The position numbers and the translations under genes were made by a program. A stretch of 64,000 nucleotides of DNA from Limnohabitans sp. 2KL-17 (GTDB taxonomy: Bacteria > Pseudomonadota > Gammaproteobacteria > Burkholderiales > Burkholderiaceae_C). Positions 36,774-62,044 of this stretch are shown here, in pieces. Positions within the stretch are counted from its first letter, which is position 1. The number at the start of each line of letters is the position of its first letter. The stretch covers positions 1 through 64,000 of the forward strand of contig NZ_NESK01000016.1 of the NCBI RefSeq assembly GCF_003063415.1, written 5' to 3'. The notes below the pieces were generated by a model. It worked only from the letters and a program-made list of their open reading frames with translations, did not search any database and was not told the DNA's origin.

Positions 36774-38312
36774 TTAACCCTGCGCAGCGACCCGATCGGC
36801 TTTGCTTTGTAATTTATTGAGTGCGCTGAGGTAGGCCTTGGCAGAGGCCACCACAATATCCGGGTCCGAACCGACGCCATTGACCACGCGGCCACTGTTT
36901 TGCAAACGCACGGTGACTTCGGCCTGACTTTCCGTCGAACCGCTGATGGCATTGACCGAATAAAGCACCATTTCGGCGCCACTCTTGACGTGCGACTCAA
37001 TGGCCTTCAATGAAGCATCCACAGGGCCATTGCCATCTGACTCTGCATGGACTTCCTTGCCTTGCACCGTGAAGACCACTGAAGCATGGGGTCGTTCGCC
37101 AGTCTCACTGTGTTGAGCCATGGAAACAAAACCGTATTGCTCCTTCTCAGCGGTGACGCTCTCATCGCCCACCAAGGCCAAGATGTCTTCGTCAAAAATT
37201 TCACTCTTTCGGTCGGCCAGTTCCTTGAACTTGGCAAACGCGTTGTTGATTTCGGTTTCGCTGTCCAAGGTCACGCCCAAATCATTCAAGCGCTGCTTGA
37301 AGGCGTTCCGGCCACTGAGTTTGCCCAAAACAATCTTGTTGGTGGTCCAACCCACGTCTTCAGCGCGCATGATTTCGTAAGTGTCCCGCGCCTTGAGCAC
37401 GCCATCCTGGTGAATGCCCGAGGCATGTGCAAAGGCGTTGGCCCCGACCACCGCCTTGTTGGGCTGAACCACAAAACCAGTGGTCTGGCTGACCATGCGA
37501 CTGGCGGCCACGATGTGGCTGGTGTCAATGCCGATGTCCAGACCGAAATAGTCGCGCCGTGTCTTGACGGCCATGACCACCTCTTCCAGCGAGCAGTTAC
37601 CCGCCCGTTCACCCAGGCCGTTGATCGTGCACTCGACCTGGCGGGCACCACCGATCTTGACCCCTGCCAAGGAATTGGCCACCGCCATACCTAGGTCGTT
37701 ATGGCAATGCACTGACCAGATGGCCTTGTCGGAGTTGGGGATGCGCTCACGCAAGGTGCGGATGAATTCGCCATACAACTCGGGCACGGCGTAGCCCACC
37801 GTGTCGGGCACGTTGATGGTGGTGGCGCCTTCAGTGATCACGGCCTCAAGGACGCGACACAGAAAGTCCATATCGCTTCGATAGCCGTCTTCGGGACTGA
37901 ACTCAACGTCCCCCACCAGATTACGGGCAAAACGGACCGATTGCTTGGCCTGCTCGAATACCTGGTCCGGCGTCATGCGAAGCTTCTTTTCCATGTGCAA
38001 CGGGGACGTAGCGATGAAGGTATGAATGCGCCCGCTGTTAGCCCCTTTCAGGGCTTCGGCCGCACGTGAAATGTCACGGTCATTGGCGCGTGACAAAGAG
38101 CAAATGGTGGATTCTCTGATCGAATCAGCGATGGTTTTGACTGCTTCAAAATCACCATTCGAACTGGCCGCAAAACCGGCTTCGATCACATCCACGCGCA
38201 GACGCTCCAGTTGCCGTGCAATGCGCAGCTTCTCATCACGTGTCATGGAGGCGCCGGGCGATTGCTCGCCATCGCGCAAGGTGGTGTCGAAAATTATCAG
38301 TTTGTCAGCCAT
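36774..38312 (-). CDS. leuA: 2-isopropylmalate synthase
   Basis: A 512-residue enzyme that condenses acetyl-CoA with 2-oxoisovalerate, the first committed step to leucine. The N-terminal HMGL domain begins with [18 protein letters not shown], and the metal-binding His residues are in [16 protein letters not shown] (about residue 203). The C-terminal LeuA regulatory domain (from about 390) gives Leu feedback inhibition. I chose ATG 38312, with AGGAG seven bases before it. It is preceded by a Leu-rich leader peptide and an attenuator and followed by a terminator, so it forms its own transcription unit downstream of pssA. Confidence 0.97.
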
Positions 38313-38345
38313 GTTCACTCCTGGTCAATAACCCGCAAGTCCAAG

Positions 38346-38388
38346 AAAAAATGCAAAAGGCCCGTTGCGGATGGCATACGGGCCTTTT
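38346..38388 (-). terminator. leuA attenuator (leader terminator with competing antiterminator)
   Basis: On the minus strand AAAAGGCCCGT and ACGGGCCTTTT form a perfect 11-bp stem with a 12-base loop, followed after GCA by six T. It lies between the leader peptide and leuA, where a constitutive terminator would make no sense. The 5' arm contains GCCCGTA (38383-38377), complementary over 7 bases to TACGGGC in the leader peptide codons (38425-38419), giving a competing antiterminator. That same leader stretch can instead pair locally (CTGCCC with GGGCGG, 38431-38417). Confidence 0.85.
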
Positions 38389-38407
38389 GGGAAAATGTTT
38401 GCGTGCG

Positions 38408-38461
38408 CTACACATCCCGCCCGTAGGGCAGTAGCAGTAGAGCATGCAGAGAAAAATTCAT
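38408..38461 (-). CDS. leuL: leuA leader peptide (17 residues, four consecutive Leu codons)
   Basis: The minus strand reads ATG at 38461 to TAG at 38408 and encodes MNFSLHALLLLPYGRDV. The run CTA CTG CTA CTG is the sensing stretch: ribosomes stalled there for lack of charged tRNA-Leu would leave the next codons (TAC GGG CGG) free to pair with the terminator arm and let transcription reach leuA. With leucine present the ribosome reaches the stop, covers that stretch, and the terminator forms. The Shine-Dalgarno is weak. I could not settle the promoter; a TAAAGT at 38473-38468 is too close to the ATG for a normal leader. Confidence 0.8.
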   Translation of the reverse strand: MNFSLHALLLLPYGRDV

Positions 38462-38510
38462 GAGATGACTTTAGCACAGTTCAAAAAGCCGGACTGTCTT
38501 GCAGTTGACA

Positions 38511-39326
38511 TCATTGGTGCAATCCACGCTCTTCAGGCTCATCGGTCGAGGTGCTGATCATGCTCGTGGGTTGCCCTTTGGCCTTGCGCCAGATATAGAT
38601 CACATACCCACTCAGACCATAGCCCACAAACAAGGCAAACAAGACTGTGGGCGGATCGATGTTGACGACCGCAATGCCCAAGGCCACCAACACCAGGGTT
38701 GCAAAGGGCACGCTCTTTTTCATGTGCATGTCCTTGAAACTGTAAAACGGCACATTGGTTACCATGGTCAGGCCTGAGAACAAGCACACCGCAAACATGC
38801 CCCAGGCCACCGTTTTCGCAGGCACAGCGTTTTCAAACATGATCCACACGAAGCCCATCACCAACGCCGCAGCCGCTGGCGATGGCAGTCCCTGAAAGTA
38901 ACGCTTGTCCACCACGCCGGTGTTGACGTTGAAGCGGGCCAGGCGCAAAGCGGCACAAGCGCAATAAACGAAAGCTGCAATCCAGCCCCAACGACCCAGC
39001 TCTTTCAGGGTCCAGACATAAGCGATCAGCGCAGGCGCAGCACCAAAGGACACCATGTCGGAAAGAGAGTCCATCTGCTCACCAAAAGCGCTTTGGGTGT
39101 TCGTCATGCGTGCGACACGCCCATCCAGGCTGTCCAGCACCATGGCACTGAATATGCCCACCGTGGCAAGGTCAAAGCGGCCGTTGATCGCCATGACCAC
39201 CGCATAAAAACCCGCAAACAAGGCAGCCAGGGTGATCATATTGGGCAGCATGTAGATGCCTTTGGAAGGCTTGCGTGCTGGCGCTGGCGATTCCGTTTCT
39301 TCGGATTTATCAGTACGGTTGTTCAT
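38511..39326 (-). CDS. pssA: CDP-diacylglycerol-serine O-phosphatidyltransferase
   Basis: A 271-residue integral membrane enzyme with about seven hydrophobic segments. The CDP-alcohol phosphotransferase signature is present as DSLDGRVARM followed by FGEQMDSLSD (D-G-x2-A-R, then G-x3-D-x3-D). It makes phosphatidylserine, the precursor of phosphatidylethanolamine. The N-terminal 25 residues and the C-terminal tail are polar and variable. It sits between ilvC and leuA, separated from ilvC by a terminator, an order known from other Burkholderiales. Confidence 0.94.
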   Translation of the reverse strand: MNNRTDKSEETESPAPARKPSKGIYMLPNMITLAALFAGFYAVVMAINGRFDLATVGIFSAMVLDSLDGRVARMTNTQSAFGEQMDSLSDMVSFGAAPALIAYVWTLKELGRWGWIAAFVYCACAALRLARFNVNTGVVDKRYFQGLPSPAAAALVMGFVWIMFENAVPAKTVAWGMFAVCLFSGLTMVTNVPFYSFKDMHMKKSVPFATLVLVALGIAVVNIDPPTVLFALFVGYGLSGYVIYIWRKAKGQPTSMISTSTDEPEERGLHQ

Positions 39327-39399
39327 TGTCTGTTCCTGTAAGGGGTTTCAATGATCCAACCCCGTGTGTACAAGTTTAAGCCACCATGATTGCCCATTG

Positions 39400-39424
39400 A
39401 AAAAGGCCACCGCAGTGGCCTTTT
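39400..39424. terminator. Terminator after ilvC
   Basis: GGCCAC and GTGGCC (39405-39420) around CGCA, with A5 on the left and T4 on the right. On the minus strand it lies 22 bases after the ilvC stop and ends in TTTTTC. Confidence 0.88.
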
Positions 39425-39446
39425 CAAAATCGACTTTCAGACAAGA

Positions 39447-40502
<1,056 letters not shown>

Positions 40503-61889: not shown

Positions 61890-62044
61890 TCAAAGATCTC
61901 TCGCAGGTTGAATTCACCAAGACTGACAGAATGTAACAGCGCTGTCCGATTTGCCCAATGGGTCAAGCCAGGGTGCGTTTCTGCCCTTTTGGGTGTATTT
62001 GGTGGCGCTGGCCAGTCCAATTTGCTTGCTGGCGCAGGTGGGCA

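Follow-up and report, generated by a model that had tools for sequence, protein, structure and literature searches.

In the window, the whole 64,000-nucleotide stretch of Limnohabitans sp. 2KL-17 DNA analysed here, the 2-isopropylmalate synthase gene leuA lies behind pssA, and both genes, as well as ilvC, ilvH and ilvI, score above cut-off against NCBIfam models. Between pssA and leuA, an earlier note on this DNA had described a leucine attenuator; every part of it lies on the minus strand, a point that the note had left unsaid (Table 1). The 17-codon, leucine-rich frame with the run CTA CTG CTA CTG is present (38461-38411, with its stop at 38410-38408), 49 nt after the pssA stop codon, and the proposed layout, a leader directly behind pssA and before leuA, holds. 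An intrinsic terminator lies between the leader and leuA: its perfect stem (38389-38378 with 38365-38354), claimed as 11 bp, reaches 12 bp when the outer C-G pair is included, the window fold adds three inner pairs, and six T residues (38351-38346) begin two bases past the stem. Within codons 13-15, ACGGGC is able to pair with GCCCGT of the terminator 5' arm. The hairpin CTGCCC/GGGCGG (38431-38417), said to shield this stretch, occurs in the predicted fold, where it caps a longer stem closed by CTAC, at the run's first Leu codon, pairing with GTAG at the stop codon.

Table 1. Features of the leuA leader region in the window.
Feature	Coordinates	Strand	Basis
Leader peptide gene, proposed name leuL, MNFSLHALLLLPYGRDV followed by stop codon TAG	38408..38461	-	ORF reading; similar leaders in relatives
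Regulatory Leu codons CTA CTG CTA CTG (codons 8-11)	38429..38440	-	CTA excess and position
Protector (1:2) hairpin	38408..38440	-	Predicted fold; named-pair counts; shuffled-flank control
Antiterminator 5' arm TACGGGC (codons 13-15)	38419..38425	-	Complementarity; folding
Antiterminator 3' arm GCCCGTA, overlapping the terminator 5' arm	38377..38383	-	Complementarity
Intrinsic terminator (stem of 12 bp, loop of 12, T6 after a CA)	38346..38389	-	Sequence; covariation
Extended -10 element TGTGC-TAAAGT, spaced 6 nt from the leader ATG; -35 unrecognisable	38468..38478	-	Comparison with relatives
Probable transcription start, A of the leader ATG	38461..38461	-	Inferred from -10 spacing and SD-like motif in 0 of 59 leaders
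leuA, 2-isopropylmalate synthase, start MADKL at 38312	36774..38312	-	NF002087 and TIGR00973 above cut-off
pssA, gene upstream of the leader	38511..39326	-	TIGR00473 above cut-off

The leader is widely conserved at leuA loci. The best 80 of 587 LeuA relatives were kept for comparison, by their titles mostly from Comamonadaceae and other Burkholderiales, the first being that of Limnohabitans sp. Rim8 (96% protein identity). A leader frame with a Leu run is found in 59 of the 81 sequences (80 loci and the window), frames having been chosen by a Leu-run rule with exceptions made on reading (L031, L063 and L080 added, the start of L046 shifted). The four parts of the attenuator, which the earlier note had placed in the right order, recur in that order in the relatives, so the arrangement is beyond chance. 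The gene upstream is recognisable as pssA for 52 of the 59 leaders, and the median gap between its stop codon and the leader ATG is 42 nt. In the peptide, the tail (HGR or NGR) is conserved and the N-terminal half varies; conservation of the tail can be attributed to the base pairing of CACGGGCG.

At 22 of the 80 loci, leuA is not directly preceded by a leader: a contig end truncates two (L010 and L071), nine carry the leader ahead of a tandem pair of synthase genes, and eleven gave no match. In the remaining 20, the frame upstream of leuA is the C-terminus of a second synthase (18 loci) or pssA (L030 and L037). A Leu leader exists in nine of these 20 genomes, and in all nine it lies about 1.9 kb upstream, overlapping the fetched locus, before the first of two tandem synthases; no Leu leader was found in the other eleven genomes by the pattern used. 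The first synthase of the pair is of another type (NF002991 above cut-off in the two that were scored, L095 and L089), and in the nine tandem genomes the attenuator seems to have stayed where the transcription unit begins. leuA is the second synthase gene in L025, L033, L034, L039, L047, L048, L068, L073 and L079.

Codon choice sets the leaders apart from the genes behind them. CTA makes up 51% of Leu codons in the leaders (136 of 268) and 0.5% in the leuA genes (11 of 2210), an enrichment of about 100 times, and TAG is the stop codon of 46 of 59 leaders as against 9 of 59 leuA genes, although the loci are mutually related and Fisher tests on this usage overstate their independence. CTA is complementary to TAG, so that pairing and rare-codon sensitivity may both favour it. 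It is hardly credible, then, that the element simply terminates pssA transcription and that the Leu-rich frame is a chance ORF: a good terminator 49 nt behind pssA would suit that role, but it would leave unexplained the frame and Leu run kept in 59 of 81 sequences, the roughly hundredfold excess of CTA, and the nine genomes in which the leader precedes a different 2-isopropylmalate synthase. In the leu attenuator of Salmonella, the leader contains CUA, and its change to CUG reportedly reduces sensitivity, according to an excerpt of the source (PMC1183508).

A structural alignment of 54 leaders (L052, L057, L063, L078 and L084 being left out of the 59) bears on the competing RNA structures. 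In the terminator, two pairs outside the antiterminator overlap covary and are never broken (A-U/C-G in 38 and 16 leaders, G-C/A-U in 40 and 14), and the outermost four pairs of the window stem, its outer A-T pairs included, are unpaired in 11 to 36 of the 54 relatives. The antiterminator core GGGC pairs in all 54 and is nearly invariant; among these aligned leaders no covariation of the antiterminator was found (187 of 500 shuffles reach its score), possibly because one stretch serves three pairings. Of the comparison with relatives that the earlier note had proposed, the conserved Leu runs and complementary stretches and the two covarying terminator pairs came out as expected, but covariation in the antiterminator did not. 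The 7-base antiterminator of the note is complementary as described (TACGGGC with GCCCGTA), but the seventh pair, T-A in the window, is standard in only 12 of 53 leaders. A terminator scan with a loop limit of 8 lists one site inside pssA, and the leader terminator is absent from that list because its loop of 12 exceeds the limit.

Evidence for the protector comes from the counts of named pairs with their controls and from folds of single sequences, because RNAalifold predicts only the terminator from the whole alignment and no consensus hairpin from its 5' part. Protector cells are paired in 77.6% of cases, compared with 73.2% in shuffles and 35-52% in slid versions. When no ribosome is modelled, 42 of 54 leaders show less antiterminator pairing than their shuffled-flank controls do (median 0.04 versus 0.46), and in the window leader it is 0.21 versus 0.47. 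The bases following the leader stop codon (38407-38400, minus strand, about GCGCACGC; columns 104-111 of alignment A1) are strongly conserved, more so than the named protector pairs need, as might be the case if they make polymerase pause or if the outer stem extends further.

Folding, which the earlier note had proposed as a check, was done in three states, with a ribosome footprint assumed to cover 15 nt on either side of the P-site start, and scored for 56 leaders (all but L052, L078 and L084). The antiterminator has a probability above 0.5 in 13 of 56 leaders with no ribosome and in 55 of 56 with a ribosome stalled at the first Leu codon of the run; with the ribosome at the stop codon it does so in 1 of 56, a result that is no evidence by itself because the assumed footprint masks the arm by construction. 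A mutually exclusive antiterminator is thus predicted by folding to be freed by a stall. With the stall position expressed as the offset of the A site from the GGG codon in 54 leaders, the mean antiterminator probability is 0.94-0.98 at -9 to -5, 0.54 at -4 and 0.02 at -3. Stalls further upstream also free it (0.90 at -10, 0.73 at -11, 0.64 at -12, and 0.49-0.73 across -13 to -11); therefore, the geometry sets a sharp downstream limit and no sharp upstream one. From offset -9 to -4 the Leu codon counts are 29, 27, 24, 47, 46 and 42, and at -3 the count is 4, so that the Leu codons sit where a stalled ribosome, in this model, leaves the antiterminator free.

Upstream of the leaders, 6 or 7 nt separate the end of the motif TGnTAnnnT from the start codon in 57 of 59 cases and 8 nt do so in L028, and L083 has a leader without this -10 box. 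In relatives the box resembles TRTGnTACATT, and over 57 aligned upstream stretches it is nearly invariant; no -35 signal was found in these stretches, positions -48 to -18 from the end of the box holding at most 0.17 bits each. A scan of positions 38200-39600 for sigma-70 -35/-10 promoters found none, as expected of an extended -10 element without a -35. SD-like motifs precede none of the 59 leader starts and 52 of the 59 leuA starts. Because 58 of 59 leaders have the extended -10 at 6-8 nt, and both a -35 signal and an SD-like motif are lacking, the leader mRNA is probably leaderless: the -10 element would place the transcription start on the start codon, and in the window, where the gap is 6 nt, on the A of the AUG. 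The average distance from -10 hexamer to start in Streptomyces lividans is given as 6.3 nt in an excerpt of PMC8079986.

The same build recurs before a gene of another pathway. A pattern built from this start matches three places in the genome to which the window belongs: the leuA leader, a 25-aa frame and a 94-aa frame. The second leader (G000:C79:18243-18262, minus strand; L087/L128) consists of an extended -10 element, 6 nt, ATG and the 25-aa MSLCSAFFYFFYFWFSVPGGREASA, rich in Phe, Tyr and Trp, with a terminator-like repeat and then a DAHP synthase gene downstream. A pattern made for this aromatic leader matches in 33 of 150 family genomes; among the 30 aromatic loci fetched, the start motif of DAHP synthase follows in 28 and, with one residue changed, in L111, and locus L118 is cut. 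The four downstream DAHP synthases that were scored are above cut-off for TIGR00034 and just below it for the AroG model NF006723. Rfam searched with the aromatic leader L087 gave matches below gathering score only. One architecture is common to the Leu leader and the aromatic, DAHP synthase leader in this family. The third place in the genome (G000:C54:8367-8386, minus strand; L086) opens its 94-aa frame without obvious leader features.

These observations also bear on an ordinary leu attenuator with a 5' untranslated region, in which transcription would start further upstream, the leader would be translated without an SD, and the box would be a protein-binding or other signal. Initiation without an SD sequence exists, and the extended -10 element is the sole mark of a promoter here, the -35/-10 scan having found nothing. 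Such an arrangement is nevertheless improbable, given that 58 of 59 leaders keep the box 6-8 nt away from the start codon despite unconserved sequence upstream, that the box and its spacing also precede the unrelated aromatic leader, that the window otherwise has fewer TGnTAnnnT sites than expected (8 versus 31), and that the median distance from pssA to the leader ATG is 42 nt (52 of 59).

Across 150 family genomes, a start pattern blind to peptide and gene (TGTGNTANANT, 6-7 nt, ATG, and TTTT 90-120 nt further on) matches in 69, and the reversed pattern gives four matches in all; one place may count repeatedly in these matches, as the TTTT end varies. Among the matches listed there are 71 distinct places, judged by eye to be 47 Leu leaders, 22 aromatic leaders and two others (G095:C3 and G135:C34). 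When the spacing was left free between 0 and 20 nt in 100 family genomes, 54 of the 63 rows among the matches listed fell at 6-8 nt (counted by eye: 11 at 6 nt, 32 at 7, 11 at 8, 3 at 9 and 6 elsewhere). A stricter start pattern matched in 6 of 300 genomes order-wide, one of them outside family f1 (G332), and because only five of the nine f1 genomes in this draw matched, the pattern loses true sites and its absence elsewhere says little. The displayed sequence of the G332 match does not resemble a leader.

With E values up to 0.01 accepted, covariance model R1 has a match in 132 of the 150 family genomes and none in the other 18. Some of its matches are the aromatic leader, which in G019 and G089 is the sole place among the matches listed. 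Order-wide, R1 matches in 16 of 250 genomes, ten of them outside f1: two strong matches (G178 and G309, family f10) are Leu leaders before the start of a 2-isopropylmalate synthase (partial frames, NF002991 best), and the other eight have E values of about 0.001-0.01. A divergent set was made up of 20 weaker in-family R1 matches and the two from f10. The extended -10 element was found by script at 6-9 nt in 20 of these 22 leaders, at 9 nt in four; it is at 8 nt by eye in L143, where the script had used an upstream in-frame ATG, and L155 has TAATAT at 7 nt with the exact TGn absent. The script found an SD-like motif in none of the 22, and the tails often read EPRVR or PRAR in place of HGR.

The existence of the element described in the earlier note is confirmed, and its interpretation as a leucine attenuator is supported; the note had missed the promoter with its leaderless-looking start, the pairing of CTA with UAG, and the second leader before DAHP synthase. 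We consider it likely, with a probability of about 0.87, that transcription of leuA is governed by ribosome-mediated attenuation in response to charged tRNA-Leu, with a leader mRNA that is leaderless. From the computed parts, conservation, geometry and fixed promoter spacing, we infer the start site, translation of the leader and its dependence on leucine as follows. RNA polymerase probably starts from the extended -10 element, without a -35, at the A of the leader AUG or no more than one or two bases away from it, so that the AUG would stand bare at the 5' end for a ribosome to load on. When leucine is short, the ribosome would wait on the CUA and CUG codons 8-11 and open the CUAC:GUAG protector stem; ACGGGC, left free, would pair with GCCCGU, the terminator would be blocked and leuA would be transcribed. 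When leucine is plentiful, the ribosome would reach UAG and cover ACGGGC, and without translation the protector would hold ACGGGC; in both cases the terminator would form. A leaderless start, if true, changes the first step, ribosome loading, on which the race with RNA polymerase depends.

A more tentative possibility, which we regard as rather doubtful, is that the attenuator is gated by the 5' end of the RNA, such that only RNAs from its own promoter present a loadable AUG and hence can be antiterminated, whereas read-through from pssA is always terminated. In read-through RNA the AUG would be internal and without an SD, the leader would stay untranslated and the protector would be kept. The no-ribosome fold, with antiterminator probability at or below 0.5 in 43 of 56 modelled leaders, and the position right behind pssA would fit such gating, which predicts that the leader's own transcripts and upstream read-through are treated differently. 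If true, a single element would sense leucine on behalf of its own promoter and at the same time insulate against transcription arriving from upstream.

Enteric leuL genes have an SD sequence and a 5' untranslated region. The leader described here resembles leuL of Salmonella and E. coli (RF00512, Leu_leader) in its Leu-rich peptide, CUA regulatory codon and competing antiterminator and terminator, but probably starts at the 5' end of its mRNA and has no SD. RF00512 has no match up to E 10 in 37000-40500, and no Rfam leader family reaches its gathering score in the window. Thr_leader was rejected at both of its matches, since such scores are mostly chance and the peptide contains no Thr: on the minus strand over the leader it scores 28.1 bits against a gathering score of 55, and on the plus strand at the terminator region 22.6 bits, also below gathering. 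A 2004 survey of proteobacterial attenuators by Vitreschak and others is said to name gamma- and alpha-proteobacteria in its abstract.

Excerpts of a study of S. lividans describe two short, Leu-rich leader peptides, LeuL1 before leuA and LeuL2 before leuS, that are transcribed leaderless (PMC8079986). The Limnohabitans leader is similar in being a short, Leu-rich and probably leaderless peptide, but belongs to another phylum, and LeuL1 is described in the same excerpts as lacking a typical intrinsic terminator (PMC8079986). Most actinobacterial leuA operons carry the LEU pseudoknot element, according to part of another report (PMC1262725). Closer by lineage is trpL/rnTrpL of Sinorhizobium meliloti, also a proteobacterial attenuator RNA that begins with the leader AUG, as far as portions of two reports describe it (PMC7298713, PMC10117765); it differs in sensing Trp rather than Leu and in its host, one of the Alphaproteobacteria. 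By analogy with this RNA, which a portion of PMC7298713 describes as leaderless and trans-acting, the short terminated leuA leader RNA or the 17-aa peptide could also act in trans. We think this very improbable, as the HGR/NGR tail is explained by the pairing of CACGGGCG and the peptide is variable in its N-terminal half. Leaderless leader peptides have been described before, as has attenuation, and the combined architecture shared by the two leaders looks undescribed: searches of titles and abstracts, which covered few subscription papers, returned no account of such a leader for betaproteobacterial leuA or DAHP synthase.

The pattern of extended -10 element, 6-9 nt, ATG, short frame and terminator recovers leader genes without knowledge of their peptides, and can be used to annotate small leader genes that Rfam missed in the two places tested. 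In the window, a scan for TGnTAnnnT followed by 6-7 nt and ATG or GTG matches the leuA leader alone, and a candidate ilvI leader of the same build was dropped on this finding. TGNTANNNT (TGnTAnnnT) occurs eight times on both strands of the window compared with a mean of 31 in dinucleotide shuffles, an approximately fourfold depletion, such as selection against unwanted extended -10 boxes might produce. A further extended -10-like site, TGTTACATT, lies at 61930-61938 on the minus strand.
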